From positions 1 through 27,321 of IMG/VR virus record IMGVR_UViG_3300022074_000301: a stretch of DNA of 27,321 nucleotides, one strand, 5' to 3'. Positions 1 to 13,288 of this stretch are shown piece after piece. This DNA is from a virus. The notes below the pieces were generated by a model. It saw only the letters and a list, made by a program, of their open reading frames with translations. It was not told the DNA's origin and made no database searches. Made by a program: the position numbers and the translations under genes. Positions within the stretch are counted from its first letter, which is position 1. Each line of letters begins with the position of its first letter.

Positions 1-158
1 AGGAGCAAACCAAACACTATTAAACCCTTATTTTATATGTATTTAATAACTGTTATTTTATCAGTTCCGATCTATTCTTATAGAAAGACTACCGGTGTTT
101 TTTATTGGCTTGAAAATATAGAACTAGATGCATGATATACACGTATTAAAAAAAAGTA

Positions 159-186
159 TTGACTCTATAGTTGACTTCTATATTCT
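159..186 (+). promoter_or_regulatory. Probable sigma70-like promoter of the leftmost operon
   Basis: TTGACT at 159-164 and TATTCT at 181-186 are separated by 16 bp, a good fit to a bacterial -35/-10 pair, 35 bp ahead of the first start codon. The first 221 bases hold no convincing gene, so this is the natural place for an early promoter read by host RNA polymerase. A second weaker candidate (TTGAAA at 110-115 with GATATA at 134-139) lies just upstream. Transcription start is not proven. Confidence 0.5.
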
Positions 187-221
187 GGACACATCGAAAC
201 AATAAATAAAAGGAAATAACA

Positions 222-560
222 ATGCATACAATTATTAAAGATCTATCTTACAATGCTAAGAATAAAAACAGCAAGCCAGTCCCACGTATTTGGCTTGACG
301 CTAAAGAGCTAAAAGCGTTTGACGTTAAGAAAGGTGATAGGTTCGATAAACTTATTTCAAATGGTATTGTAATTATTCGTTTCAATAGTGAAGGCAAAAG
401 AAAAGTTTCTGGTACTGACACTAGACCGGTAATAGATATAAACGGTGCTTTTTTAGAACCATTCTTTAAAGGTGCTAAACAATACAAGGCTACATTTATT
501 AGAGCTAATGAAACTCAATACTCAAATACTAATGATATAACTATTCAAAAGGTGGCTTAA
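222..560 (+). CDS. Hypothetical early protein, 112 aa
   Basis: First gene of the window, with an AGGA ribosome site at 211-214 and ATG at 222. The protein is small, basic at the N-terminus and looks soluble, with alternating beta-type stretches (GIVIIRF near residue 50) and a conserved-looking segment RKVSGTDTRPVIDINGAFL around residues 60-78. I do not recognise a named domain; the short beta-rich layout could suit a small DNA-binding or barrel fold, but that is a guess. It shares the leader AGGAAATAACAATG with the gene at 2699 and lies ahead of the cysteine-cluster protein at 755. Confidence 0.8.
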   Translation: MHTIIKDLSYNAKNKNSKPVPRIWLDAKELKAFDVKKGDRFDKLISNGIVIIRFNSEGKRKVSGTDTRPVIDINGAFLEPFFKGAKQYKATFIRANETQYSNTNDITIQKVA

Positions 561-561
561 A

Positions 562-732
562 ATGGATATGAATTTAATAGAAAAAATCAATATGCAATAT
601 GCTAGCGAAAAAACAGAACTATTAGAGCAATTAAAAAGTAAAGAGATTAGTAGAGAATTATATGAAAACTATTTACAGCAATTAGCACAAGCCTATAATA
701 TGGATATTGTAGACGCTACACTAGAAAATTAA
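562..732 (+). CDS. Small hypothetical protein, 56 aa
   Basis: An open frame starting one base after the stop of the preceding gene (TAA A ATG) and ending in TAA at 730-732. It encodes a charged, leucine- and glutamine-rich helical peptide beginning MDMNLIEKINMQYASEK, with likely coiled-coil character around residues 18-48. The GGTGG at the end of the upstream gene may serve as ribosome site. No function recognised. Tight spacing to the previous gene and fitting codon use support it as real. Confidence 0.65.
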   Translation: MDMNLIEKINMQYASEKTELLEQLKSKEISRELYENYLQQLAQAYNMDIVDATLEN

Positions 733-754
733 TTAATAGAAAGGAACTAATATT

Positions 755-1489
755 ATGTTTAATGGGAAAATAATCAAAGCCGGTATGAACGCAAAAACAA
801 TTAAAGGTGACGGCTCAGAATTTGAAACGGCTATCTTTTACGGTACGCCTTTTAAGATGTTTATAGAGAAAGCCGGCAAAAAGCTGCAAGTCAATTCTTG
901 TGCTTTTGCTGATATAGCTAAATGTTTTGAACCTTGTTTATATAAAGCCGGAAGGGGAAAGTTTTCAAGCGTACAAAAAAGCCGTACTGATAGAACTACT
1001 CTATTCTATACCGATAGAAGTTTATTTTTAGCTTTACTTGTAAAGGATATAGAAAAATTCGAAGTAAGGTGTATCAAGAATAATATAAAACCTTGCGTTA
1101 GGCTAAACGGCACTACCGATATACAATGGGAAAAAATAAAGGTTCCTAAATATGATATGAATATTTTTGAAATATTTCCTAATGTTCAGTTTTACGACTA
1201 CACTAAAATATATAAACGTGACGTTTCAAATATTCCTAACTATCATTTAACATGGTCTTATTCACAAGCTAATAAAGATTATGCTAAAGAATATAAGACG
1301 GCTTTAAATAATGGTATGAATATAGCCGTAGTATTTAGAGATAAACTTCCTGCAGCTTTTTTAGGCTTGCCGGTTATAGACGGTGATAAAGACGACTTAA
1401 GGTTTTTAGATACCAAAGCCGTAGTTGTAGGTTTAAAGGCTAAAGGTGACGCTAAAAAAGACGTTTCCGGTTTTGTAATAGACATATAG
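755..1489 (+). CDS. Cysteine-cluster phage protein of unknown function (GP88/DUF7227-like)
   Basis: A 244-aa protein with a good ribosome site (AAGGAA) in a leader shared with its neighbours. Its layout matches, from memory, a widespread phage and bacterial family of unknown function: NAKT near residue 12, a cysteine cluster (C49, C57, C61) followed by AGRGKF, then RLNGTTDIQWE (116-126), FYDYTK (146-151), NYHLTWS (162-168) and VIDGDKDDLRFLD (207-219). Close-spaced cysteines with conserved acidic and aromatic motifs suggest an enzyme, possibly metal or Fe-S binding; this is inference. The family name is given from recall, not from a search. It carries two copies of the AAAAAGCTGCA motif, one in each orientation. 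Confidence 0.75.
   Translation: MFNGKIIKAGMNAKTIKGDGSEFETAIFYGTPFKMFIEKAGKKLQVNSCAFADIAKCFEPCLYKAGRGKFSSVQKSRTDRTTLFYTDRSLFLALLVKDIEKFEVRCIKNNIKPCVRLNGTTDIQWEKIKVPKYDMNIFEIFPNVQFYDYTKIYKRDVSNIPNYHLTWSYSQANKDYAKEYKTALNNGMNIAVVFRDKLPAAFLGLPVIDGDKDDLRFLDTKAVVVGLKAKGDAKKDVSGFVIDI
878..888 (+). repeat. AAAAAGCTGCA motif, copy 1
   Basis: Exact 11-mer inside the gene at 755, read there as Lys-Lys-Leu-Gln. One of eight exact copies in the first 8.6 kb. Confidence 0.7.
1351..1361 (-). repeat. AAAAAGCTGCA motif, inverted copy 2
   Basis: TGCAGCTTTTT on the plus strand, the exact reverse complement of the motif, inside the gene at 755, where it is read as part of Pro-Ala-Ala-Phe-Leu. It is the only inverted copy found. 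Confidence 0.6.
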
Positions 1490-1504
1490 AAAGGAACTAA
1501 CAAA

Positions 1505-1696
1505 ATGAAAATTAACATTACTAAAAGACAAGCACGACTTATCTATGATTTAATTGATATGGAAATAGACGATGTAAGAAAGGCTAATAAAGAAAGGCGA
1601 TACGGTAAAACAAAACTTTATGACTATGCACGATATTTAAAAAGGCTAAAGGATAAAGTAAAGGATGAAGGCAATAGAGATTGTTACTATATATAA
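1505..1696 (+). CDS. Small basic hypothetical protein, 63 aa
   Basis: Starts with ATG at 1505 behind AGAAAGGAACTAACAAA, almost the same leader as the gene at 755. The 63-residue product is strongly basic with a helix-rich pattern (KRQARLIYDLIDMEIDDVR, then lysine- and arginine-rich YLKRLKDKVKDEG), which would suit nucleic-acid binding or a small adaptor. No named family recognised. Confidence 0.7.
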   Translation: MKINITKRQARLIYDLIDMEIDDVRKANKERRYGKTKLYDYARYLKRLKDKVKDEGNRDCYYI

Positions 1697-1724
1697 AAAG
1701 CTGCAACACCTGGAAAAAGCTGCA
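1695..1724 (+). repeat. Tandem pair of AAAAAGCTGCA motifs in an intergenic region
   Basis: Two exact copies (1695-1705 and 1714-1724) 19 bp apart at the start of the 97-bp gap between genes, just upstream of TTGACG at 1740-1745. As they do not encode protein here, selection on the DNA itself is likely. A role as operator or activator site is inference. Confidence 0.7.
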
Positions 1725-1739
1725 GGATATACTTTAGGC

Positions 1740-1767
1740 TTGACGTATCTATAAAAAACATTTAGGT
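1740..1767 (+). promoter_or_regulatory. Weak promoter candidate before the 46-aa gene
   Basis: TTGACG at 1740-1745 is a good -35 box, but no good -10 is seen 16-18 bp downstream (TTAGGT at 1762-1767 is poor). Its place in the gap right after two copies of the repeated 11-mer makes activator-dependent use possible. Confidence 0.25.
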
Positions 1768-1793
1768 GATTAGAAAAGAAAGGATAAAACAAA

Positions 1794-1934
1794 ATGACTA
1801 AACAAGTAATGACAATAGACTATGATCAAGCCTTAGCATTAGTTAAGAAAAAGGATAAGCTAACACCGGAACAATATTCAAAAGAATTTTGGAAACTATG
1901 GAAACCTAAGAAAAAAGAAAGGATAGAAAAATGA
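1794..1934 (+). CDS. Small lysine-rich hypothetical protein, 46 aa
   Basis: ATG at 1794 follows the leader AGAAAGGATAAAACAAA, the same kind of leader as at 755 and 1505. The 46-aa product begins MTKQVMTIDYDQALALVKKK and ends in a tryptophan- and lysine-rich tail. The stop TGA overlaps the next ATG (ATGA at 1931), so it is probably translationally coupled to the nucleotidase gene. Function unknown. Confidence 0.65.
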   Translation: MTKQVMTIDYDQALALVKKKDKLTPEQYSKEFWKLWKPKKKERIEK

Positions 1935-2446
1935 GTGTGACAAAAATACAACACCTATATTTAGACATGGATGGCGTAATTGCTGACTTCTACACCTTAC
2001 TTTCTGAATGGTTTAAAGTAGACCATTGGAAAGAGATTAAAACAAGAGAGGAAATACTTGAAAGATTAAAAGGTTCAAGTTTCTTTTCAGAAATACCGGT
2101 GTTCAGTAATACATATTTAATATTAGATATAGTTGATTATTATACTGAAGGTAATTGGTCTATATTAAGTACACCTTTAGAAGGTGACTTTGAAAACTCA
2201 GTTAAGCATAAAGATATATGGCTTGATAGAGTGTTAGAGCAAGCCGGAATAGAAACTATACGAACTAGAAATAGATTTTATAGTCATAAGAAATGGGAAT
2301 TTGCAGAACCTAATACCGTTTTAATAGATGATAGACCACAAAATATAAACGACTTTATAAAAGCCGGTGGCTTAGGTATAAGGTTTCAAGCTAACGAAAG
2401 TTACTTATCTAAGCTAGTGCAGAAACTAGAGAAATTATATAGGTGA
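1931..2446 (+). CDS. 5'(3')-deoxyribonucleotidase-like HAD phosphatase
   Basis: A 171-aa HAD-superfamily protein. Motif I is LYLDMDGVIADF (nucleophile Asp about residue 12, acid/base Asp two residues on), motif II is the Ser/Thr in SILSTPLEG, the lysine is in YSHKKWEF and the metal-binding acidic pair is in VLIDDRPQNINDF. Order and spacing fit the small phage and bacterial 5'(3')-deoxyribonucleotidases, which dephosphorylate dNMPs or NMPs in the cytoplasm. A role in nucleotide-pool adjustment fits the reductase and DUF3310 genes further right. Its start overlaps the preceding stop by ATGA. Exact substrate unknown. Confidence 0.8.
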   Translation: MSVTKIQHLYLDMDGVIADFYTLLSEWFKVDHWKEIKTREEILERLKGSSFFSEIPVFSNTYLILDIVDYYTEGNWSILSTPLEGDFENSVKHKDIWLDRVLEQAGIETIRTRNRFYSHKKWEFAEPNTVLIDDRPQNINDFIKAGGLGIRFQANESYLSKLVQKLEKLYR

Positions 2447-2450
2447 ACCG

Positions 2451-2603
2451 ATGGAACAATTTTTAATTTACTATACACTACTAATAGCGTTTATGCTTTT
2501 GCTGATGGTTATTGTAGTTGTGTGCGACCACATAAAATTAATGCGTCCCTTTTGGGAAATAGAAAAGAGATATAAAAAAGAGTTAGAAAGTATAAGAAAA
2601 TAA
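2451..2603 (+). CDS. Small single-span membrane protein, 50 aa
   Basis: Starts four bases after the nucleotidase stop and ends with TAA at 2601-2603. It has a long hydrophobic stretch at about residues 4-25 (LIYYTLLIAFMLLLMVIVVV), then a charged C-terminal tail (WEIEKRYKKELESIRK). This gives one transmembrane helix with a basic cytoplasmic tail. No ribosome site better than AGGTGA is seen. Function unknown; phage early genes of this type often act on the host membrane, but nothing here proves it. Confidence 0.6.
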   Translation: MEQFLIYYTLLIAFMLLLMVIVVVCDHIKLMRPFWEIEKRYKKELESIRK

Positions 2604-2629
2604 AAAGCTGCAACCAGGTTTTTTGTTTG
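2602..2629 (+). repeat. 28-bp direct repeat, copy A (contains the 11-mer)
   Basis: Identical over 28 bases to 4275-4302. It begins with AAAAAGCTGCA and ends in GGTTTTTTGTTTG. This copy lies between genes and its last bases are part of the TTGACC box at 2627-2632. Confidence 0.8.
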
Positions 2630-2653
2630 ACCGGTGTATTTAATTAGTATAGA
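2627..2653 (+). promoter_or_regulatory. Candidate promoter before the 71-aa gene
   Basis: TTGACC at 2627-2632 and TATAGA at 2648-2653 with a 15-bp spacer, in the 95-bp gap ahead of the gene at 2699. The spacer is short for sigma70. The -35 box is fused to the end of the 28-bp repeat, so a protein bound to the repeat could control it. Confidence 0.35.
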
Positions 2654-2698
2654 AAAGTAATAAGAGATAAATAACACTAGCTAAGAAAGGAAATAACA

Positions 2699-2914
2699 AT
2701 GGCTAAATTAGATCACATAAAAGTTAATCACCTATCCTATAGGCTTGTCGATGCTAGACAGCGTAACGGTTCAGTAGGAACTACTAAGAGTAATAACATA
2801 GGATGGATGAAAGAAATAGTAGCCGTAAACGGTCACGACCCTAGATGTTTCTTTACTAAAAGGTTTATCACCATAGAGTCTAGACTAAAGCAAATACTAA
2901 ACGGTCATATCTAA
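2699..2914 (+). CDS. Hypothetical protein, 71 aa
   Basis: ATG at 2699 follows AAGAAAGGAAATAACA, a leader identical over 14 bases to that of the first gene in the window. The product is basic (MAKLDHIKVNHLSYRLVDAR at the start) with a single Cys in HDPRCFFTKRF and no membrane segment. Not recognised. The gap before it holds the 28-bp repeat and a promoter-like pair, so it may begin a separate transcript. Confidence 0.7.
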   Translation: MAKLDHIKVNHLSYRLVDARQRNGSVGTTKSNNIGWMKEIVAVNGHDPRCFFTKRFITIESRLKQILNGHI

Positions 2915-2915
2915 T

Positions 2916-2996
2916 ATGGCTTTAACTTTAATATTAATTGGTATGCTGATAGTAGTTTTTGCTTACTGCTATTGGCTATCCGGAGGGTTCAAGTAA
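2916..2996 (+). CDS. Tiny membrane peptide, 26 aa
   Basis: Begins one base after the preceding stop (TAA T ATG) and its stop TAA shares its last base with the next ATG. The peptide MALTLILIGMLIVVFAYCYW plus SGGFK is almost wholly hydrophobic: a single membrane helix. It is very short and has no strong ribosome site, so translation is only plausible, though the tight coupling on both sides supports it. Confidence 0.45.
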   Translation: MALTLILIGMLIVVFAYCYWLSGGFK

Positions 2997-3181
2997 TGAA
3001 AACTATAGACTTAATAAAAATACTTTTAGAAACTGGCGACTTAAACAAGCCTATTAAATTCTACTCAATAGATAGCGATGAAGTAGGTGCAGAAGTAAAG
3101 TGTATTGAGTTTCAAGATATGCATAATACAATAGGCTATATTAATATAGAAATGAAAAAAGCTGCAGGAGATAAATCATGA
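2996..3181 (+). CDS. Hypothetical protein, 61 aa
   Basis: ATG at 2996 is preferred over the in-frame TTG at 2972 because GGAGG (2982-2986) stands at the right distance and TAATG couples it to the previous peptide. The product starts MKTIDLIKILLETGDLNKPI and has a short beta-rich middle. Its end encodes Lys-Lys-Ala-Ala from a copy of the repeated 11-mer. It overlaps the methyltransferase start by ATGA and may be co-translated with it. No domain recognised. Confidence 0.65.
   Translation: MKTIDLIKILLETGDLNKPIKFYSIDSDEVGAEVKCIEFQDMHNTIGYINIEMKKAAGDKS
3156..3166 (+). repeat. AAAAAGCTGCA motif, copy 6
   Basis: Exact 11-mer near the end of the gene at 2996, read in a different frame (Lys-Lys-Ala-Ala) from the copies at 878, 4275 and 8526 (Lys-Lys-Leu-Gln). 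This frame change argues for conservation of DNA, not protein. Confidence 0.7.
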
Positions 3182-4272
3182 TCTGCTATAGTGCTTTTGA
3201 TGGGTCTAGTTGTGTACAGCAAGCCTACAAAACTTTAGGTATAACTTTTGATGGTAGTAGAAATAAATACTACGCTAGTGAGCTAGACCCTTATGCTCAA
3301 GCCGTAACCAAATATAACTTTCCAAACACTATATTTTTAGGTGACGTTAGAAACGTAGACTATAACGAGCTTGCATCTAAACACGATGTAGATTTGATGG
3401 TAGCCGGTTCACCTTGTCAAGATCTTAGCTTTGCCGGTAAAGGCTTAGGCTTTAGTTCCGAAGGTAAACGGTCTAATCTTTTTTGGATATGGCTACAACA
3501 ATTCAAAGCTGTTAAGCCTAGATATGTTTTAGTTGAGAATGTACGCATGAAAAAACAGTGGCAAGATATGATGTCAGAAGGTTTAGGCTTTGAACCACAA
3601 GAGGTAAACTCAAAGCTGCAATCGGCTCAGAATAGGGTAAGGCTCTATTGGTTTGGTAAAAGAGTAGGCGATAAGTATGTACAAGTACCTATACAAGACA
3701 TAAAAGATTTAGGTATAGTCTTAGGTGATATCGTAGAAGATGAAGTCGATAGTAAATACTTAGCCGGTGATCACCTACAAAAAGGCTATAAAGGTGGCAA
3801 CCAGTTGAACCCTAACTATAAGTCACAAGCCAATACTATACACGATTTAAACGGCAAAGCCGGTGTAGTATGTGCCGGTACGCATGGCTACGCTAACGGC
3901 TACGTCCAGAATGGATGTATACAAGTAGGCGAAACGGCTAATATAAAAGGCTACGATATTATTAAGAGGGTATACAGCGTTAAAGGTAAAGCACCTACGC
4001 TGACAACGATGCAAGGTGGTCATAGAGAACCTAAGATAGCCACTAGCGATAAGACTTGGCGAAAGCTGACACCGTTAGAGTGTGAGCGTTTACAAACCTT
4101 GCCGGATGGCTATACGCAATACGGTGACTTTGGTGGTGAGCAGTTCGATAAAGACGGTAACTTTATTCGCTACACCACAAAGCCTATCAGCAATACGCAA
4201 CGCTACAAGATGATCGGCAATGGTATGACGGTTAGTATTATAGCTAAGATATTAGAAGGAATGGAGATATAA
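3178..4272 (+). CDS. DNA (cytosine-5-)-methyltransferase, Dnmt3-like
   Basis: A 364-aa C5-cytosine methyltransferase that transfers a methyl group from S-adenosylmethionine to cytosine in DNA. Visible motifs in order: AdoMet-binding motif I (CYSAFDGSSC, residues 3-12), ASELDPYAQ (motif II), DLMVAGSPCQDLSF with the catalytic Cys of PCQ near residue 80 (motif IV), YVLVENVRMKK (motif VI), SAQNRVRLYWFG (motif VIII), target-recognition region from about 165 to 290, and IGNGMTVSIIAKIL (motif X). The motif VI-VIII region resembles Dnmt3-like enzymes. No restriction partner is adjacent, so it is an orphan, likely protecting phage DNA or marking it. Target unknown; CCGG is enriched in this part of the genome. 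Confidence 0.93.
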   Translation: MICYSAFDGSSCVQQAYKTLGITFDGSRNKYYASELDPYAQAVTKYNFPNTIFLGDVRNVDYNELASKHDVDLMVAGSPCQDLSFAGKGLGFSSEGKRSNLFWIWLQQFKAVKPRYVLVENVRMKKQWQDMMSEGLGFEPQEVNSKLQSAQNRVRLYWFGKRVGDKYVQVPIQDIKDLGIVLGDIVEDEVDSKYLAGDHLQKGYKGGNQLNPNYKSQANTIHDLNGKAGVVCAGTHGYANGYVQNGCIQVGETANIKGYDIIKRVYSVKGKAPTLTTMQGGHREPKIATSDKTWRKLTPLECERLQTLPDGYTQYGDFGGEQFDKDGNFIRYTTKPISNTQRYKMIGNGMTVSIIAKILEGMEI

Positions 4273-4358
4273 TGAAAAAGCTGCAACCAGGTTTTTTGTT
4301 TGTACTGTTAGTAACGATTTGCTATGTATTAGATGTAACATATAACTATATATTTTAA
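4272..4358 (+). CDS. Tiny hydrophobic peptide, 28 aa, starting in the 28-bp repeat
   Basis: ATG at 4272 overlaps the methyltransferase stop (TAATG) and the frame closes with TAA at 4356-4358. The peptide begins MKKLQPGFLFVLLVTICYVL: a lysine pair then one hydrophobic helix, like a signal or small membrane peptide. Its first codons are made by copy B of the 28-bp repeat, so the frame could be a by-product of the repeat. Translation is plausible but unproven. Confidence 0.4.
   Translation: MKKLQPGFLFVLLVTICYVLDVTYNYIF
4275..4302 (+). repeat. 28-bp direct repeat, copy B (contains the 11-mer)
   Basis: Identical over 28 bases to 2602-2629. Here it forms the 5' end of a 28-codon frame directly after the methyltransferase gene. 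The two copies bracket the block of genes 2699-4272. Confidence 0.8.
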
Positions 4359-4369
4359 AGGAGAGAAAA

Positions 4370-4744
4370 ATGTTATTAAATAGAAAAATGGTAAAAGATC
4401 TTAGAGCAATATTAGATGATGCTCTTAACGATAATGAAAGTCTTAAACAGTTTATTGTTGAGATTGGTAGTGCTAACTTTAATGATACTGAAGTCACATT
4501 CAAAGTTAATCTAAGAATGAACGGTGCTAAGTCACAAAGCGAAAAAGACTTAGAGTTTTATGGTAACATGGATAACTTAGACCTTACCAAAATAGCCAAG
4601 CTTGACGGTAAAGACTTCAGCTTGTCCGGTTTTAGACGCAAGGCTAGAACTAAGCCGTACCTCATTCAAGACTTGAAGAATGGTGGTGAGTATATCATTA
4701 CTACCGATACAGCTAAAAGGTATTTTGGAAAGGAGGTAGCGTAA
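4370..4744 (+). CDS. Hypothetical protein, 124 aa
   Basis: Strong ribosome site (AAAGGAGAG at 4357-4365) before ATG 4370. The protein is soluble, with a helical start (MLLNRKMVKDLRAILDDAL), a central beta-rich part and a basic stretch FRRKARTKP near residue 90. The last codons contain GGAGG, which serves the next gene, whose ATG overlaps the stop. Not assigned to a family. Confidence 0.75.
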   Translation: MLLNRKMVKDLRAILDDALNDNESLKQFIVEIGSANFNDTEVTFKVNLRMNGAKSQSEKDLEFYGNMDNLDLTKIAKLDGKDFSLSGFRRKARTKPYLIQDLKNGGEYIITTDTAKRYFGKEVA

Positions 4745-5124
4745 TGAAAGCTATATTGATAGACCCAAAGGCGAAACAAGTTATGCAGATAGATTATAGT
4801 GGAGATTACCGACACATCTATGAGCATCTAAGTTTCCAAAACACAGAGGGCATGACGCATAAACCTAGAGCCTTTGATGTGGTTCGTACTCCAACCGAAG
4901 GGGATGGTATCTACGTAGACGATGAAGGATTGTACGCACCGGCAGAGGACAAGCATTGGTATAACATAAAGTATAACGATCAAGATATGATGTTAGTAAA
5001 CCGGAGTCTTGTTATTGGATGCGATGACGAGGGTAACAGTAAGGATTGTGTTTCTACTGTAGAGGATATCAGAAGTCGCATAACGTGGGGAATACCAAAA
5101 ACGTGGAGCATGGCTAGTGCCTAA
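4744..5124 (+). CDS. Hypothetical protein, 126 aa (DUF3846-like features)
   Basis: Coupled to the preceding gene by TAATG, with GGAGG just upstream. The protein begins MKAILIDPKAKQVMQIDY and has GIYVDDEGLYAP near residue 57 and SLVIGCDDEGNSKD near residue 88. This sequence of an IDP-type strand, a VDDEGL turn and a VIG-DDEG strand recalls phage proteins annotated DUF3846; that is from memory and unproven. No catalytic residues can be named. It closes the left block of medium-sized genes. Confidence 0.7.
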   Translation: MKAILIDPKAKQVMQIDYSGDYRHIYEHLSFQNTEGMTHKPRAFDVVRTPTEGDGIYVDDEGLYAPAEDKHWYNIKYNDQDMMLVNRSLVIGCDDEGNSKDCVSTVEDIRSRITWGIPKTWSMASA

Positions 5125-5287
5125 GACGTATTACAAAAAGGTGAAGATAACAAAGCCTCGTAATCCTGTGTTCATACGCAAGGCAACCATGTCTATAAAC
5201 GACAAGCGTGAAAAGGTTGCCAAGCGTAGGCATGAGCATGAGATTTTCCAGGCAAAATTATTAAGAAAGGAATTGAAAGATGACTGA
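5117..5287 (+). CDS. Small very basic protein, 56 aa, GTG start
   Basis: GTG at 5117 with GGAG at 5105-5108 gives a 56-residue frame that overlaps the previous gene by 8 bases and the next by 8. The product (VPKTYYKKVKITKPRNPVFI at the start, later KRRHEHEIFQ) is rich in Lys, Arg and His, consistent with nucleic-acid binding. The start is uncertain because no ATG occurs until an internal Met. Not recognised. Confidence 0.5.
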   Translation: MPKTYYKKVKITKPRNPVFIRKATMSINDKREKVAKRRHEHEIFQAKLLRKELKDD

Positions 5288-5438
5288 GTTAATTATAAAA
5301 AAGTTAATATGGGAGCAGTGTGGATTTACTGAGATTAATGGCATATTTAAATTTAAAGACTGTCAACATTGTGGTGACGAGTGGGAGTATCAATGCTATG
5401 AGTGTGAAAGAGAAGAGGAGGATATGAGACATGGATAA
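5280..5438 (+). CDS. Small zinc-ribbon protein, 52 aa
   Basis: ATG at 5280 follows AAGGAATTGAAAG. The 52-aa product has two CxxC pairs, in KDCQHCGDE and QCYECERE, nine residues apart, followed by an acidic tail (EREEEDM). This is a compact zinc-ribbon layout, typical of small phage regulators or host-interaction proteins. Role unknown. It overlaps genes on both sides. Confidence 0.65.
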   Translation: MTELIIKKLIWEQCGFTEINGIFKFKDCQHCGDEWEYQCYECEREEEDMRHG

Positions 5439-5580
5439 TAATAAAGATTGGTTTGATAAACATATTATTGTAGACTTTGGTGACTTCAATAATAAAGAAG
5501 ATAAAAAGAAAGCTGACGATCTAAAAGAAAAGCTGCGAGAGAAACTAGAAGAGGAGTTTAGAGATGACAAGAGAAGTTAA
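5431..5580 (+). CDS. Small charged coiled-coil protein, 49 aa
   Basis: Starts inside the end of the zinc-ribbon gene (ATG 5431, GAGGAGG-like purines at 5415-5421) and overlaps the next gene by 17 bases. The second half is a strongly charged helix (KEDKKKADDLKEKLREKLEE), probably a coiled coil. It contains a near copy of the repeated motif (AAAAGCTGCG at 5527). Function unknown. Confidence 0.6.
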   Translation: MDNNKDWFDKHIIVDFGDFNNKEDKKKADDLKEKLREKLEEEFRDDKRS

Positions 5581-5764
5581 ATGGGCGATACTCTTTACAC
5601 CTTTTGAAGAAGAGGATACTGAGTATGTTAAGGAAGGATGTGGAGCAATGTGGACGCAAGATAGTCCGGTGAAGGTGTTCGATACATATGAAGACGCTAA
5701 GAAAGAATGTGCTAAGTGGAACACTGGAGAGATAGTGCGATGGGTAGGAGAACAATATGAATGA
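5564..5764 (+). CDS. Hypothetical protein, 66 aa
   Basis: ATG at 5564 with GAGGAG upstream. The small acidic protein starts MTREVKWAILFTPFEEED and contains YEDAKKECAKWNTGEIVRWV, which looks like an alpha-beta fold with two tryptophans. Overlapping starts and stops place it in the chain of tiny genes from 5117 to 7428. Long frames on the opposite strand across this segment are shadows. No named family. Confidence 0.65.
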   Translation: MTREVKWAILFTPFEEEDTEYVKEGCGAMWTQDSPVKVFDTYEDAKKECAKWNTGEIVRWVGEQYE

Positions 5765-5888
5765 AGAAGAACAGCAAGAGGAACATAGTTGCGATGACAA
5801 CGCAATCTATTATGAGTTTACTGAAGATGGTCACAGATATCATGGGTATGAATGTGGTGTTTGTGGTGAGCATTTACAATCAGGATAG
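5757..5888 (+). CDS. Small CxxC protein, 43 aa
   Basis: ATG at 5757 overlaps the preceding stop; GTAGGAG at 5744-5750 is a good ribosome site. The 43-aa acidic peptide has a histidine-rich middle (DGHRYHGYECGVCGEH) with one CxxC pair and flanking His residues that could bind one metal ion. The stop lies within the AGGAGG that serves the next gene. Function unknown. Confidence 0.55.
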   Translation: MNEEEQQEEHSCDDNAIYYEFTEDGHRYHGYECGVCGEHLQSG

Positions 5889-5897
5889 GAGGACACC

Positions 5898-6116
5898 ATG
5901 AATGATAAAGTAAAAGAAGAGGCACTAAAGCAAGCGCAGGAGGCTTACATAATATTCCATAAGTTTCTAAAATACTTTGGCTATACTATGTTGTTTCTGA
6001 TATTCTTGCTGTACCTAAATGATTTCTTCAATGATCCTACAGCGAGTAGGCATCTACCTGAGGAGATAGCAGATCAATATGACCCAAAGGGTCTTAACAT
6101 AAGGAAAGGAATATAG
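5898..6116 (+). CDS. Single-span membrane protein, 72 aa
   Basis: Very strong ribosome site (AGGAGG at 5887-5892) before ATG 5898. A charged amphipathic N-terminus (residues 1-25) is followed by a transmembrane helix at about 28-46 (YTMLFLIFLLYLNDFF), then an acidic soluble tail. It stands directly before a second membrane protein. It could belong to a lysis or membrane-takeover set; the sequence gives no firm function. Confidence 0.65.
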   Translation: MNDKVKEEALKQAQEAYIIFHKFLKYFGYTMLFLIFLLYLNDFFNDPTASRHLPEEIADQYDPKGLNIRKGI

Positions 6117-6353
6117 ATGAAACCATATCATAACAAAGGCTTTGGCATGGCTTTCTTTGTAGTGTTCTTATTGCTCATACCTTTACCCATACTAGGACTG
6201 TGGGCAGTAGATGGTCAAGATTGGGTTGATAGGTTTACAACCAAATACTTTTCCCCTTGGCAGTCCGAATGTTGGGAGACATCTAAACATGAGAGAGTGT
6301 GCAAGGCAGATAACAACTGTAAATTTTGGAGGAACTTTTGCCATGAAGAATAA
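6117..6353 (+). CDS. Membrane-anchored cysteine-rich protein, 78 aa
   Basis: ATG follows the previous stop directly (TAG ATG), with AAGGAA upstream. A hydrophobic helix at residues 11-32 (AFFVVFLLLIPLPILGLW) acts as signal anchor. The exported part has four cysteines (CWETSKHERVCKADNNCKFW and a last Cys near the end), likely to form disulphides in the periplasm. The GGAGGA within its end serves the next gene. Spanin-like topology was considered, but no lipobox is seen. Confidence 0.65.
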   Translation: MKPYHNKGFGMAFFVVFLLLIPLPILGLWAVDGQDWVDRFTTKYFSPWQSECWETSKHERVCKADNNCKFWRNFCHEE

Positions 6354-6447
6354 TAATGATGATGAAGGTATAGCTCTACTGCTCACTATAGCCTTAGCTA
6401 TAACCTTAACTATGGGATTGAACGCAGTTGTTCAGCTTATCCTATGA
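6343..6447 (+). CDS. Small membrane peptide, 34 aa
   Basis: ATG at 6343 is chosen over an upstream in-frame ATG at 6211 because GGAGGA (6328-6333) stands nine bases ahead and the upstream part lies wholly inside another gene. The peptide is a short Asn/Asp-rich head (MKNNNDDEG) and one hydrophobic helix (IALLLTIALAITLTMGL). It overlaps its neighbours on both sides. Function unknown; small holin-like or membrane-modifying roles are possible. Confidence 0.55.
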   Translation: MKNNNDDEGIALLLTIALAITLTMGLNAVVQLIL

Positions 6448-6611
6448 GTAAATGGGCATATATAATAATAAAGGTGGAGCATGATGCGCCCAATACAGAG
6501 CTAATCGCTAGAGAATGTGATTGGGACATAGAGCATGAAACTATTATTGATGCTAAGATAGTGGGTTACGTTGAGCATGATCCAGAGTTTGACTATGAAG
6601 TATTACATTAG
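6444..6611 (+). CDS. Small acidic hypothetical protein, 55 aa
   Basis: ATG 6444 overlaps the previous stop (ATGA). The 55-aa acidic protein (MSKWAYIIIKVEHDAPNTEL at the start) has two VEHD motifs, at about residues 11 and 43, suggesting an internal duplication of a short strand-turn unit. No family recognised. Its stop is followed at once by GAGGAGG for the next gene. Confidence 0.6.
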   Translation: MSKWAYIIIKVEHDAPNTELIARECDWDIEHETIIDAKIVGYVEHDPEFDYEVLH

Positions 6612-6622
6612 AGGAGGTGGCA

Positions 6623-6748
6623 ATGGATGAAATGAATCTTATAGATCCAGAGTTTGATAATACAGAGGAGGAGGATAAACAAATTATAAACGAGTTTAAG
6701 GAGATAGCTGATGTTATTAGAGACAGCACTGATGTGCATGGCATTTAA
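6623..6748 (+). CDS. Small acidic peptide, 41 aa
   Basis: GAGGAGG at 6611-6617 precedes ATG 6623 at ideal distance. The 41-aa peptide (MDEMNLIDPEFDNTEEEDKQ at the start) is highly acidic with a helical C-terminal half. It overlaps the cell-wall hydrolase start by 38 bases, so coupling is likely. A DNA-mimic type role could be imagined from the charge, but nothing in the sequence proves it. Confidence 0.55.
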   Translation: MDEMNLIDPEFDNTEEEDKQIINEFKEIADVIRDSTDVHGI

Positions 6749-7139
6749 CATATATCACGAGGCAGGGAATCAATCCATGATAGGACAGATGGCTGTAGGT
6801 CAAGTAGTTCTGAATCGTGTAGCCGATAACAGATTCCCGGATACAGTTTGTGAAGTTGTTAAAGAGGCTGTAACATATAAGAATACGAACAAGCCAGTTC
6901 GTTGGAAATGCCAGTTCACCTGGTTTTGCGATGGCAAAAAGGATGAACCTAACTTTAACAGTAGGACTTGGAGTCTGGCATTAGAACACGCATCTATTCT
7001 GTTGACCAAGACTATTGTGCTTGATATAACAGAGGGAGCGACTCACTACCATGCAACCTATGTGCGTCCTGCATGGGCAAAGACTAAGACTAGGACGACA
7101 CGAATTGATAAACATATTTTTTACAGATGGGAGAAGTAA
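6711..7139 (+). CDS. SleB-type cell-wall hydrolase (endolysin candidate)
   Basis: A 142-aa Hydrolase_2 (SleB-like) protein. It shows AFNIYHEAGNQS with the catalytic Glu at about residue 17, GQVVLNRV at 30-37, the family CQFTWFCDG segment near 66-74, and a C-terminal THYHATYVRPAW block typical of the family. Such enzymes cut peptidoglycan glycan strands. ATG 6711 has AAGGAG seven bases ahead. No secretion signal is seen, so release would need a holin; a membrane protein follows at once. The most likely role is host lysis at the end of infection. Confidence 0.85.
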   Translation: MLLETALMCMAFNIYHEAGNQSMIGQMAVGQVVLNRVADNRFPDTVCEVVKEAVTYKNTNKPVRWKCQFTWFCDGKKDEPNFNSRTWSLALEHASILLTKTIVLDITEGATHYHATYVRPAWAKTKTRTTRIDKHIFYRWEK

Positions 7140-7141
7140 AT

Positions 7142-7330
7142 ATGACAGAAGCACAGATTGATTATATATTTTGGAGATGTATAGACATACTAAATTACAT
7201 TTGCAGCATAACTGGTTTGTCTTACGAACTCTTAAACATATTAGTTTTCGTGATAGGACAACCGGCTTTAATACTATTGTTCTATATACTGTGGAGATTT
7301 GAGAGAGGAAGGAGAAGAGCATGGAGATAG
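7142..7330 (+). CDS. Candidate holin, 62 aa
   Basis: ATG 7142 is preferred over an upstream in-frame ATG at 7127 because GGAG at 7130-7133 lies eight bases ahead. The product has a hydrophobic N-terminal half and a clear transmembrane helix (ILVFVIGQPALILLFYILW, about residues 33-51), ending in a very basic tail (RFERGRRRAWR). Position directly after the endolysin, small size and charged tail fit a holin, but sequence alone does not prove the role. Confidence 0.6.
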   Translation: MTEAQIDYIFWRCIDILNYICSITGLSYELLNILVFVIGQPALILLFYILWRFERGRRRAWR

Positions 7331-7428
7331 TAATATATACTTGGGCATTTATCTATGCTATAATACTGCTAGTTGGATTTATCACTAGCGTTATGAGAGT
7401 TAAGAGGTTGAACGATGCAGACAAGTAA
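7321..7428 (+). CDS. Small membrane peptide, 35 aa
   Basis: Overlaps the holin candidate by 10 bases and the integrase by 14. ATG 7321 has GGAAGGAG just ahead (7310-7317). The peptide has one helix (YTWAFIYAIILLVGFITSV) and a basic tail. It could be an antiholin or accessory lysis peptide, or only a small membrane protein. Coupling on both sides and a strong ribosome site favour translation. Confidence 0.55.
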   Translation: MEIVIYTWAFIYAIILLVGFITSVMRVKRLNDADK

Positions 7429-8329
7429 AGACATAAAGACTATGCTGTCTTTAGCTGACTACTACCTAAATTCCCCCCAGTTTTTATCGCTGAGGGGGAG
7501 AACTCAGAAGGACTATGAGTATGTCATATCAAGAGTTATGGCTACACCTATAAGGCATGGCAAGAGTCTAGGAGAGTTAAAGGTGGATAAGGTAACAGTT
7601 TCTGATTGTAAGACAGCGTATCAACAATGGCTAGATCGTGGAGTCAGGACAGCTAATATGTCTGCTACTTTAAGTTCTTTACTATTTAATCTAGCAGAGG
7701 AGTTTGAATTGGTTAGCCGTAACCCAATGCGTAGCGTCAAGAAGATGCAAACCAAACCACGCAAGGTTATGTGGACAGCCGATCAGGTTAGACTCTTCTG
7801 CGACACGGCTTACGCAGAGTATAAGTGGAGAAGTATAGGTCTTATAGTTCAGATGGCATACACGTTTGCTCAAAGGATAGGCGATATGCGTTCACTCAAG
7901 TGGGATAGTATAAACTTTGACGAGCGTAGACTAGACTTAGAGCAATCAAAGAAGAGAGCAGAGGTGCATCTTCCTATTAATATAAACATGTTTAGGATGC
8001 TAGAGCAACAGCATAAGGACTTTGGTTTCCAAGAATTTGTTGCACCTCATCCCTTTCCTAGAAGTGGTAGCTATGTTAACTACAACGATAAAGAAATAAG
8101 CTATATTGTAAACCAGATAAAGGAGAAGGCAAACCTACCAAAGGAACTGACAGCTATGGACATGAGAAGAACAGCTATAACAGAGATGGTTGAGGCAGGA
8201 GTAGACACCACTCAGATCATGGCTGTGTCTGGACACAACAGTCCAAACTCAATGCGTCCATATATTAAGCACACATTTAATTCGGCAAGTAATGCACTAG
8301 ACAGAAGGGAGAGTTATAAGGATGCCTAG
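7415..8329 (+). CDS. Tyrosine recombinase (phage integrase)
   Basis: A 304-aa tyrosine recombinase that would join phage and host attachment sites. It has an N-terminal core-binding part (about 1-105, with NMSATLSSLLFNLAEEFELV) and a catalytic part. Active-site residues: Arg154 (AQRIGDMRSLKW), Lys179/180, Arg251 (DMRRTA), His274 (SGHNSPNS) and Tyr283 (RPYIKH). The His of the usual HxxR box is Met248, a tolerated change in some families. Its place between lysis genes and replication genes, and the link with HMO-2011-like phages, suggest a conserved module. No attP core or repressor gene is seen nearby. Confidence 0.92.
   Translation: MQTSKDIKTMLSLADYYLNSPQFLSLRGRTQKDYEYVISRVMATPIRHGKSLGELKVDKVTVSDCKTAYQQWLDRGVRTANMSATLSSLLFNLAEEFELVSRNPMRSVKKMQTKPRKVMWTADQVRLFCDTAYAEYKWRSIGLIVQMAYTFAQRIGDMRSLKWDSINFDERRLDLEQSKKRAEVHLPININMFRMLEQQHKDFGFQEFVAPHPFPRSGSYVNYNDKEISYIVNQIKEKANLPKELTAMDMRRTAITEMVEAGVDTTQIMAVSGHNSPNSMRPYIKHTFNSASNALDRRESYKDA
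7472..7499 (+). other. GC-rich hairpin within the integrase gene
   Basis: TCCCCCCAG at 7472-7480 pairs with CTG at 7490-7492 and GGGGGA at 7494-7499, with one bulged A (7493) and a nine-base loop TTTTTATCG. It stands out in AT-rich DNA, near codon 20 of the integrase, where an mRNA hairpin could slow ribosomes or polymerase. Function unproven. Confidence 0.45.
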
Positions 8330-9110
8330 CATACCATCACGTAATTTTTTAGAAGGTATTAACGTAAAGGAAGGAGAATCACTCACATTAGATTGTCCTA
8401 AGTGTAATGGAGTAAAGAAGTTTTCTATTAGCAATCAGGAAGGCTTGTTGTTATACAACTGTTACAGAGCCTCTTGCGATGTTAAAGGTTCGTACATGAC
8501 AAATATGTTAGCTGATACGATAAAGAAAAAGCTGCAGGGTGTTGCAGAAAATAAAACACCAGAGAAGTTCATCATGCCAGAGCGTATAACTGATGGCAAT
8601 AACGCTTACGTTCAGCGATTCAAAAGACGATGGGATCTGTCGATAGATTTACTATATGACTGTAAAGACTCACGAGCCGTATTTCCTATCTACAGTAACG
8701 GCAGACTCGTAGATGCGATAGGACGAGCCTTATATAATAGTCAACCTAAGTGGTACAGATACGGTGGTGACGCTAAACAGTACACACATAGGATTTCTGA
8801 TTGCAAAAGTGTGGCTGTTGTGGTAGAAGATTGTGTATCAGCTACAGTGGTGGGAGAAACTATGGTGGGTATAACTGGTGTGGCTTTGCTTGGAACAAAT
8901 TTAATGAGAGAGCATAAAGAATACTTGGATACATTTGACAAAGTAATAGTCGCTCTTGATCCTGATGTTATAGGCAAGACGATTGAGTATACCAAAGAGT
9001 TAAAGAGTTACTGTGACCCTTCAGAAGTGTATGCTTTACACATTGAAGACGATCTAAAATACAAAAGAGAAAACGACTTTAATCAACTAAGGAGGCTTAT
9101 CAATGGTTAG
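8322..9110 (+). CDS. DNA primase with zinc finger and Toprim domain
   Basis: A 262-aa primase resembling the N-terminal half of T7 gp4. A zinc finger (C25, C28, C47, C52, in DCPKCNG and NCYRASCD) reads template sites. A Toprim fold follows, with the conserved Glu169 in VAVVVEDCVSATVV and the metal-binding Asp pair in VIVALDPDVIGK (D213, D215). It makes RNA primers for the replisome. The helicase is a separate gene two positions downstream, whereas T7 fuses both. It starts within the integrase end. A copy of the repeated 11-mer lies at 8526. Confidence 0.88.
   Translation: MPSIPSRNFLEGINVKEGESLTLDCPKCNGVKKFSISNQEGLLLYNCYRASCDVKGSYMTNMLADTIKKKLQGVAENKTPEKFIMPERITDGNNAYVQRFKRRWDLSIDLLYDCKDSRAVFPIYSNGRLVDAIGRALYNSQPKWYRYGGDAKQYTHRISDCKSVAVVVEDCVSATVVGETMVGITGVALLGTNLMREHKEYLDTFDKVIVALDPDVIGKTIEYTKELKSYCDPSEVYALHIEDDLKYKRENDFNQLRRLING
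8526..8536 (+). repeat. AAAAAGCTGCA motif, copy 8
   Basis: Exact 11-mer inside the primase gene, in the Lys-Lys-Leu-Gln frame, followed by GGG. The most distant copy, over 4 kb right of the others. Confidence 0.6.
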
Positions 9111-9699
9111 ATACTGCAGGGATTGTAAAGAGGAGCTAGACGTTACTACTAATTGGTCTGGGTCTTGTAGGAAGGCTCGTGTTTATAGATGTAAGAGATG
9201 TCATGCTGATAATCAAACAAGCTTTAATCATATACACGCTCCTAGAACTAACAAGTTAAGAATGTTTGTTGATGGCAAGTACATATCAAGAACACATCCA
9301 TTATACAAACCAGGAAGATATAAAACTTTTAACGATGCAGCTTTCTCTTCTTTGGTTAATTATGTGTTGTCTACTGAGGGGGAGGTGTACGTGCTTAGGA
9401 ATCCTGCGTGGAGTAATTGGTACAAGATAGGTAAAGCTATTGAGTCTGTGGATAGATGTAATCAATATCAAACAGGTAGTCCTCATAGGGATTACACGTT
9501 AGTCACCTATAAAAAGTTTAAGCATAGAGGTGTGGCAGAAAAGATGGCACACTCGTTGGCTGAGGGTTTAAGTCGTAAGAGAGCTAACGAATGGTTTTAT
9601 ATAGAGAATTTAGAGAAGGAAGACTTTGACAAGATGTTAGGTCTTATTGATGGGTTAATAGAGGAGAAGATACAGAATGATAGAACTAGCACTAATTAG
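9103..9699 (+). CDS. GIY-YIG-like nuclease with N-terminal zinc finger
   Basis: A 198-aa protein with an N-terminal zinc-finger-like part (C5, C8, C22, C30, C33) and a C-terminal domain of the GIY-YIG/T5orf172 type. VYVL (95-98) replaces GIY and YKIG (107-110) replaces YIG; Arg118 follows in VDRCNQYQTGSP, then Glu146 in AEKMAH and NEWFYIE (162-168). Such domains cut DNA and often occur in homing endonucleases. It sits between primase and helicase, overlapping both by a few bases, so it could be an inserted homing gene or a true replication-module nuclease. Activity not proven. Confidence 0.72.
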   Translation: MVRYCRDCKEELDVTTNWSGSCRKARVYRCKRCHADNQTSFNHIHAPRTNKLRMFVDGKYISRTHPLYKPGRYKTFNDAAFSSLVNYVLSTEGEVYVLRNPAWSNWYKIGKAIESVDRCNQYQTGSPHRDYTLVTYKKFKHRGVAEKMAHSLAEGLSRKRANEWFYIENLEKEDFDKMLGLIDGLIEEKIQNDRTSTN

Positions 9700-10900: not shown

Positions 10901-11232
10901 GTGAGTGGCAATATGTTAGAACTAATAGTAAGGGTGAGCCTATATTTAGAAGGGATACTAACGAAACAAAGGAGTTTGTTGACAGTTTTTTAGATGAGAG
11001 AAACATCCCTTATCAATATCGTGAAAAGCCATTTATGTATTGGATAACCAACGATGAAGGCAAAGACTATGCGTATTTCTACACCACAGGAAGATGGTGT
11101 AAAAGAGTTAATAGAGGCTACCCAAAGATGCACTATCAAAGTAAGGGCATAGAAGACTTTTGCACTAGGTTTTTAAATAAATTTGTGGGGCAACCATTTA
11201 ATAAGAAGGAAGAAAATGAAGATAATACTTGA
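10897..11232 (+). CDS. Hypothetical protein, 111 aa
   Basis: ATG 10897 overlaps the helicase stop (ATGA) with GGAAGG ahead; an upstream in-frame start at 10843 lies inside the helicase and is rejected. The protein is basic and aromatic-rich (MYWITNDEGKDYAYFYTTGR, then WCKRVNRGYPKMHY) and seems to be a small beta-rich fold. Not recognised, but its place between helicase and polymerase suggests a replication accessory. It overlaps the polymerase start by 17 bases. Confidence 0.7.
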   Translation: MSEWQYVRTNSKGEPIFRRDTNETKEFVDSFLDERNIPYQYREKPFMYWITNDEGKDYAYFYTTGRWCKRVNRGYPKMHYQSKGIEDFCTRFLNKFVGQPFNKKEENEDNT

Positions 11233-13288
11233 TGTAGAGAACACAACAACTAAGCGTGATGGTAAGTTACATCTAGACCCATTTGAGCCTGATAATTCTT
11301 TGACACTTGTGGGTGTACAGGATTGGTTGTCTGATGAAAGCACTGTGTTTGTGTTTGACCACAAAGAAAAGACAATAGAGGATGATGAATCAGATAAAAA
11401 GCTTCAAAGAGTTCTTGACAACACAACATTACTAATAGGTCATAACCTACAGTATGATCTTCAATGGCTTTGGGCATGTGGTTTTAAGTATGAGGGGGAT
11501 ATATTCGACACTATGCTAGGTGAATACATACTACAGCGAGGTCAGAAGGAGTCTGTTAGCCTTGAGAACTGTGCTATTCGCTACAACCTTGATATGAAAA
11601 AGTCTGATACACTCAAAGACTACTTTAGGCGAGGCTTTCAGACAGACGAGATACCTCTTGAGGAGTTGTCAGAGTATCTTAGACAAGACTTAATGGTAAC
11701 AAAGGCTCTATTCTGGCGACTGATGGAGGAGTACGACAAGCCTGAGTCCAAATCTCTAGTAAATGTTAGGGATCTTACTAATGAAGTATGTAAAACGCTG
11801 ACTAGAATGTACATGAATGGGTTTAAGATAGACAAGGAAGCCTTACAGATAGTGCGCTCTGACTTTGAAGAGGAACTAATAGCCATAGAAAGACGCTTAC
11901 AGGATCAGGTTAGAGAGTTGATGGGTGATACACCTATAAATCTTAACTCTCCAGAGCAGGTTAGCCAGGTTATTTATTCAAGAATACTGTACAACAAGAA
12001 AGAATGGGCAGTTGCTTTTGACTTAGTGGAGGGAAAGGAAGAGTTTAAACAGGCTGTCAAGGATAATAGTGCCATGATGGTCAAAACAAAAGCTAGTGTG
12101 TGTCCTACATGTAACGGTAAGGGAAGAATAATTAAAACTAAAAAGGATGGTACACCTTTTGCCAAGCCAAACAGATGCCCTGAGTGTGATACGAGAGGGT
12201 ACAAACTTAAAAAGCTACGGCACATGGCAGGTCTTGGGTTCTTCCCACCGTCAAAAGAGTGGGTGAGTGCCAACGGTTTCTCTACGAGCAAGGGAAACTT
12301 AGAGCATCTTATAAATATAGCTAAGACAAAAGAGATGAATACAGCAGAAAGGTTCTTGACAGACCTAAAGAGACAGAGTGCTGTGTCCAGTTATCTCTCT
12401 TCCTTTGTTGATGGCATAGAGCATTACACAAAAGAGGATGGCTTCCTGCATGTTACCCTGACGCAACACGTTACGGCTACAGGACGTTTCAGTGGACGCA
12501 ACCCTAACATGCAGAACATGCCTAGAGGTGGTACGTTTCCTGTTAAGAAGGTGTTTGTGTCTCGTTGGAATAGTAAAGAGTTTGGTATGAAGGGTAAGAT
12601 ACTTGAAGCTGACTTTGCACAGCTAGAATTTAGAGTTGCAGCTTTATTATCGCAGGACAAAGTAGCGATGAAAGAAGTATCTACAGGTTTTGATGTTCAC
12701 TCCTACACGGCTCAGATCATCACTGAGGCAGGACAACCTACGTCCAGACAAGAAGCTAAGGCACACACCTTTGCGCCTCTATACGGTGCTACAGGATACG
12801 GTAGAACAAAAGCTGAGGCTGAGTATTACACACACTTTATGGATAAGTATAAAGGTATAGCTAAATGGCATAAGAAACTAGGTGATGAGGCTATCAACCT
12901 TGGTAGAATAAAGATACCCTCAGGTAGGCAGTATGCTTTTCCTGACGTAGAGAGAAGGGCGAGTGGTACTCCAACCCACTTTACCATGATAAAGAACTAC
13001 CCTGTTCAAGGCTTTGCTACAGGTGACATAGTTCCTATTATATTATTAGAGATGGAGAAGCGTTTGAGTAACGATAAGTTAAAGAGTGTTTTAGTAAACA
13101 CAGTGCATGACTCTGTGGTGTTGGATGTTCACCCACTAGAGGAAGAAGCTGTTTTAAATATTATCAAAGATGTTAATGACAATCTTAAAAGGATTATCGA
13201 AAAGCATTATGATATAGAAGTCAATGTTCCTATGTTATTAGAATCAAAAATAGGTGATAATTGGCTTGACGTTAAAGATGTATTCTGA
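11216..13288 (+). CDS. Family A DNA polymerase with DnaJ-like zinc insert
   Basis: A 690-aa T7-like polymerase. The proofreading exonuclease shows LDVENT (D6, E8), GHNLQYD (D81) and YLRQDLM (D158). The polymerase domain shows TGRFSGRNPNMQNMPR (422-437), motif A EADFAQLEFR (D466), motif B RQEAKAHTFAPLYG (511-524) and motif C VHDSVV (H631, D632). Between them, residues 296-324 have CPTCNGKG and CPEC, half of a DnaJ-type zinc domain, a known hallmark of HMO-2011-like marine phages. ATG 11216 follows AAGAAGGAAG; an earlier in-frame non-ATG start at 11183 is rejected. Confidence 0.96.
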   Translation: MKIILDVENTTTKRDGKLHLDPFEPDNSLTLVGVQDWLSDESTVFVFDHKEKTIEDDESDKKLQRVLDNTTLLIGHNLQYDLQWLWACGFKYEGDIFDTMLGEYILQRGQKESVSLENCAIRYNLDMKKSDTLKDYFRRGFQTDEIPLEELSEYLRQDLMVTKALFWRLMEEYDKPESKSLVNVRDLTNEVCKTLTRMYMNGFKIDKEALQIVRSDFEEELIAIERRLQDQVRELMGDTPINLNSPEQVSQVIYSRILYNKKEWAVAFDLVEGKEEFKQAVKDNSAMMVKTKASVCPTCNGKGRIIKTKKDGTPFAKPNRCPECDTRGYKLKKLRHMAGLGFFPPSKEWVSANGFSTSKGNLEHLINIAKTKEMNTAERFLTDLKRQSAVSSYLSSFVDGIEHYTKEDGFLHVTLTQHVTATGRFSGRNPNMQNMPRGGTFPVKKVFVSRWNSKEFGMKGKILEADFAQLEFRVAALLSQDKVAMKEVSTGFDVHSYTAQIITEAGQPTSRQEAKAHTFAPLYGATGYGRTKAEAEYYTHFMDKYKGIAKWHKKLGDEAINLGRIKIPSGRQYAFPDVERRASGTPTHFTMIKNYPVQGFATGDIVPIILLEMEKRLSNDKLKSVLVNTVHDSVVLDVHPLEEEAVLNIIKDVNDNLKRIIEKHYDIEVNVPMLLESKIGDNWLDVKDVF

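Follow-up and report, generated by a model that had tools for sequence, protein, structure and literature searches.

Why does one 11-letter word, AAAAAGCTGCA, recur eight times in a short stretch of viral DNA? The stretch is IMG/VR record IMGVR_UViG_3300022074_000301, positions 1 to 27,321. This 27.3-kb virus record, a fragment of an HMO-2011-type phage, is called the window below. Seven of the eight exact copies are on the plus strand and one is on the minus strand; seven lie in the early (left) arm, within the first 4.3 kb (878-4285). The repeated element is real and private to the window phage. Judging from its sequence context, it is probably a binding site for a phage regulator. A fuller reading, with a probability of roughly 45%, takes AAAAAGCTGCAR as a cis-regulatory site that is peculiar to this phage and occurs at several places along the early arm.

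Copy number, chance and coding

All eight copies were located where an earlier note on this DNA had placed them, including the one on the minus strand. The base after the word is always A or G, as also noted there. The word is asymmetric and not a dyad, and six of the early-arm copies, out of a total of only seven, run in the sense of transcription.

Two copies are inside the GP88 gene. The one at 878..888 (plus strand) codes for KKLQ, where homologues have varying residues or a deletion, and the one at 1351..1361 (minus strand) codes for PAAFL on the plus strand. A tandem pair at 1695..1724 (plus) has a 19-bp period with CCTGG in between, and runs from the stop codon of open reading frame (ORF) 1505-1696 into intergenic DNA. 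At 2602..2629 (plus) there is a non-coding 28-bp element, AAAAAGCTGCAACCAGGTTTTTTGTTTG, made up of the 11-mer and CCAGG. Its second, perfect copy at 4275..4302 (plus; 28 of 28 bases identical) lies at the beginning of ORF 4272-4358, which encodes a small membrane protein. The copy at 3156..3166 (plus) encodes KKAAG, a C-terminal stretch private to the window phage, in the gene preceding a methyltransferase, whose ATG follows 11 bp on. Besides this exact set, a near copy, AAAGCTGCA, is found at 3612..3620 (plus) within the methyltransferase gene, where it codes for KLQ; the best syntenic relative, L145, has KYI there. The eighth exact copy, at 8526..8536 (plus), codes for KKLQ in the primase gene. 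The earlier note had counted it with the others, but L145 and L033 also have this primase KKLQ while lacking the rest of the set, so it is ordinary descent and not an added site.

Chance provides very few such copies. The expected count is 0.02 from dinucleotide shuffles, 0.06 from a third-order Markov model of the window and 0.018 from a third-order model of the left arm alone, where orders up to 4 all stay below 0.1. Shuffling that keeps the amino acids and the codon usage of each region, which had been suggested as a check, gives 0.31 expected copies with a maximum of 3 over 400 shuffles; no 11-mer of any kind exceeded four copies in these. The repeat stands, and the refutation by codon-preserving shuffles that the earlier note had allowed for does not come about. 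Given that the primase copy is descent, that 1695/1714 is a tandem and that 2602/4275 is a duplication, about five independent events remain in 3.4 kb. Even this is far in excess of 0.02.

The coding copies tell us what is being constrained. At 878, an alignment of 87 homologues has no KKLQ among the listed variants; there is KNIE, gaps and other residues instead. At 1351, PAAFL in the window corresponds to PKTFL, PKKFL, PNEFL and PKEFL in near relatives. The residues at 3156 come after the conserved part of the protein and are private to the window phage. At 4275 the element produces an N-terminal KKLQPG, and homologues of the small membrane protein start differently. Because these are private residues at variable positions, the constraint would be on DNA or RNA and not on protein, which bears out what had been proposed before. 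To go by these alignments, the word is built where proteins are free to vary. There is no gap at 1351 compared to the nearest homologues, nor at 878 compared to L143, so these two copies arose by substitution. Mobile insertion is thereby rejected at both places.

Could the word nevertheless have no function? It would then consist of chance and coding copies, plus the tandem duplication (1695/1714) and a single 28-bp duplication (2602/4275). Both duplications are plain to see, the 8526 copy is wholly coding descent, relatives do not have the word, and bacterial genomes often contain the word pair in coding repeats. This explanation is made unlikely by some five independent early-arm copies where 0.02 are expected, by the ceiling of four copies for any 11-mer in the codon-preserving shuffles, and by the phage-private residues of the coding copies.

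It is very unlikely that the word is simply one of the early arm's favoured short words, like CCGG or AGCC, brought about by a mutational or modification-linked bias. Such favoured words do exist. In 1-5200, CCGG has 22 occurrences where codon-preserving shuffles give 8, and AGCC has 60 where they give 33, with a maximum z of 6.9 where shuffles reach 4.4. The same bias was sought in a mid-genome control of the window and was absent. In addition, every GCWGC in 1-5200 (8 of 8) is inside AAAGCTGCA; the codon-preserving null expects 2.3 outside of it, and has zero in 3.8% of runs. But 11 letters far exceed favoured words of 4 or 5, the left-arm Markov models do not account for the copies, and the intergenic copies gather at promoter boxes.

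The short-word bias is an observation in its own right. In early arms, the choice among synonymous codons is tilted towards 4-5-mers specific to each phage, with maximum z of 6-10 against shuffle maxima near 4.4. The words are CCGG/ACCGG/AGCC in the window, GCAGC in L143, CCGGA in L223, CCGG and GGCC in L227, CCTGC in L145, CCCGG in L023 and GACTC/CCGC in L228. Methyltransferase cassettes were considered as the cause and rejected: L223 and L227 have the same cassettes, with GGCC counts of 1 versus 42, and L023 is biased with no methyltransferase found in its early arm. Strong avoidance is seen in HMO-2011 itself (L011), where 1-30320 contains no CCWGG against 41 expected and no GATC against 83.

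Two putative promoters

The non-coding copies stand ahead of TTGAC boxes, as had been reported. The intergenic copies end 15 bp before TTGACG (1740..1745, plus strand; measured from the second tandem copy) and 14 bp before TTGACC (2627..2632, plus strand). The only other non-coding TTGAC in 1-5200 is a pair at 159/171. At the first junction, A, TTGAC is also present in L143, L223, L023 and L230, and at the second, B, in L145, L143 and L227. Since most relatives keep it at both junctions, the boxes at 1740 and 2627 are likely to be -35 boxes, of putative promoters A and B.

L145 has a repeat of its own at these same two intergenic boxes, TCCAGGTAWCCGGCAAAAA, which is unlike the window word. At the two orthologous junctions, TCCAGGTATCCGGCAAAAA and TCCAGGTAACCGGCAAAAA stand ahead of TTTACA and TTTGAC at a distance of 12-13 bp. 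This 10-mer carries weight because of an 18 out of 19 match together with its placement. CCWGG accompanies both elements: in 1-5000 of the window all three occurrences are within the element, and in L145 CCWGG adjoins all three copies of CCGGCAAAAA. Within each phage, then, two promoters share one element, and the elements differ between the phages. This is as would be expected if a single regulator of drifting specificity reads both promoters. The pattern rests on two phages, as L143, L223, L227, L230 and L023 have a box at these junctions without a comparable repeat.

Under the cis-regulatory reading, a sequence-specific regulator from the phage (or the host) would bind the AAAAAGCTGCAR sites. 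It would govern transcription of the early operon, at promoter A (1740), at promoter B (2627) and perhaps at points along the transcript, with the sites acting like dispersed operators or stoperators. Its specificity would shift fast between phages, which would explain why the repeat at these two promoters is another one in the closest relative.

Several things weigh against this. In a simple scan, neither the box at 1740 nor that at 2627 comes with a good -10. The L145 10-mer is by itself within the noise of the repeat search. Two of the copy pairs may be plain duplications. The window word is asymmetric, and most repeats in relatives are dyads. The window does not include the other half of the genome, and neither HTH_3 nor HTH_26 was found in the window and 23 other records, other helix-turn-helix (HTH) types not having been searched. 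Finally, no relative keeps the word in place, and here the earlier suggestion that related phages should have the motif at the same places did not work out. This absence may be read as turnover of a phage-specific site.

It is also conceivable that the element works in RNA, as a sense signal in early transcripts for their antitermination, processing or translation. The prevailing sense orientation would fit, as would the position of the 3156 copy just before the methyltransferase ATG, and an A/U hairpin is possible in the 28-bp element. However, the intergenic elements fold no better than shuffles (z from -0.8 to 0.7), there is no Rfam match in 1-9200, one copy is antisense and the distance to start codons is not constant. 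A hairpin or known RNA family therefore finds no support, and a role in RNA is, by a shade, even less probable than a favoured word. Least probable is a linker role in recombination, at gene junctions, for swapping early gene cassettes. In its favour are the perfect 28-bp copies, the position of the copies at 1695, 2602, 3156 and 4275 on borders between genes, and the displacement of gene 2451 between the window and L145 (its homologue precedes an element in both, with different genes after). Against it, the 878 and 1351 copies are inside a conserved gene and the sequence is not common to phages, as a linker would need.

The phage, its proposed regulator and its methyltransferase

HMO-2011-type phages are defined by a family A DNA polymerase, two CXXCXGXG motifs and an integrase upstream of the replication module (PMC6918029). 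The window polymerase has 57-63% identity with those of CRP-603, CRP-2, CRP-207 and HMO-2011 (tblastn; coverage of 98-99% for HMO-2011, CRP-2 and CRP-603). Its ORF, 11183-13288, contains CPTCNGKG and CPECDTRG, the second of which is off the motif by one letter. An integrase (PF00589) was detected in the window, upstream of the replication module as in the definition. The polymerase with its DnaJ-type insert, the integrase, a ribonucleotide reductase and the gene order place the window among these phages.

Such phages are widespread in the sea, and at least one member integrates (PMC6918029). As integration has been demonstrated for one of them (PMC6918029), an immunity system is plausible. In the literature searched, no description was found of how HMO-2011-type phages control lysis, lysogeny or early transcription. 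A testable dispersed site at two promoters would be a handle on this control.

Which protein might bind it? The absence of HTH_3 and HTH_26 covers 24 records, among which the complete HMO-2011, CRP-3 and CRP-345 genomes, so that a cI-like repressor is not evident. The window is about half of the 52-55 kb genome size of HMO-2011-type phages, and a late-arm regulator, if any, would thus be outside of view. The first early gene, 222-560, encodes a conserved protein of 112 amino acids, with a confident model at a predicted local distance difference test (pLDDT) score of 88.7, and has no family or fold match. By eye it had looked like an AbrB-like regulator; lacking any match to a family or solved fold, this candidate was dropped.

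The nearby methyltransferase had also been suggested as a partner of the word. L145, L034 and L232 share its segment GYDIIKRVYS..AP(T/S)LTTMQGG, and their early arms do not have the word. The recognition segments compared fail to track the word, so the link finds no support and the methyltransferase target is rejected. The enzymes themselves are diverse. C5 methyltransferases at one locus (window 3178-4272; also L143, L145, L223, L224, L227 and L230) differ by whole recognition cassettes. The cassette blocks end in APTLTTMQGG, TNCLSTVQKDN or TPSLTTSSWEHNN, there is also a IRDKSKAVRVGGRG block, and the window segment is private. The multispecific methyltransferases of Bacillus phages offer a likeness for such enzymes.

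Related early arms and known systems

A survey of 124 related loci, each of at least 7 kb, used the largest of 40 Markov simulations as its threshold. In 54 of the 124 a repeat exceeds this maximum, where some are overlapping records of one phage or coding repeats. The strongest repeats are dyads near early genes, with each phage having its own sequence: AGTCCGACATCGGACT, TGTCTGAASTTCAGACA (eight copies in L178), TGACGGACCATCCGTCA (six copies in L157) and TGTCAACSGTTGACA. Cultured HMO-2011 (L011) has AGTCCGACAGCGGACT three times, at 61, 1262 and 1927. Rough gene calls put 30 of 57 dyads in non-coding DNA, which makes up some 10% of these loci, and 20 of the 30 are at most 60 bp from a start. 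Comparable repeats, differing in sequence, are thus a frequent feature of the related early arms, also in HMO-2011. Given that phage-specific dispersed elements are usual in this group, the window word would be another instance. The word or its bipartite element was also sought elsewhere, and turned up only as coding repeats or in unrelated contigs; a GCTGCAA-CCWGG pairing in L052 is probably a coding coincidence. Relatives with the methyltransferase and with gene 2699 were searched for as well, and none were found.

The survey contains some further patterns. Phage-specific dispersed dyads occur in L011, L178, L195, L157, L177, L186, L147 and L189, often 15-30 bp before early starts. In several phages the central bases of the dyad point the same way in every copy, a possible hint of an RNA hairpin instead of a DNA dyad. 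A leftmost intergenic dyad with about three copies, like operator clusters, is present in L148, L144 and L079 (TTTGTGATCACAAA) and in L145 and L223 (like AGTTATAACT). Roseophage-like loci L009, L010, L060, L078, L084 and L154 have GCCCAGCGC four to seven times, on both strands and mostly in coding sequence.

A broader claim is distinctly unlikely: HMO-2011-type phages might have a novel form of early control, with a non-cI-like regulator family and DNA or RNA sites, scattered over the early arm, that shift in concert at every promoter of a phage. If this were true, close relatives would be mutually blind, and the AAAAAGCTGCA set would be one specificity of an early-gene control system.

Dispersed control sites are not new. 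The operators of P1 (C1) and phi105 are asymmetric, present in multiple copies and dispersed among early genes, with sequences unrelated to the window word. The start-associated sequences of cluster K mycobacteriophages (PMC3203893) are short repeats before early genes and resemble the dyads of the related arms; they differ from the window word, whose distance to start codons is variable and which occurs within genes too.

Closest are the stoperators of cluster A mycobacteriophages such as L5 and Bxb1, with a repressor of the gp71 type (PMC6550527, PMC9283540). Stoperators are spread genome-wide and mainly in short stretches between genes, whereas the seven to eight sites of the window are confined to one arm (the early set at 0.9-4.3 kb), about half of them coding, and the closest relative has an unrelated sequence. 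Like stoperators, the seven exact early-arm copies form a set of many near-identical asymmetric sites. Both are short, phage-specific and scattered, and in some cases placed at promoters. Stoperators are mostly oriented along transcription, for which the window offers six sense copies out of only seven. The stoperator consensus varies among related phages, as the window word does.

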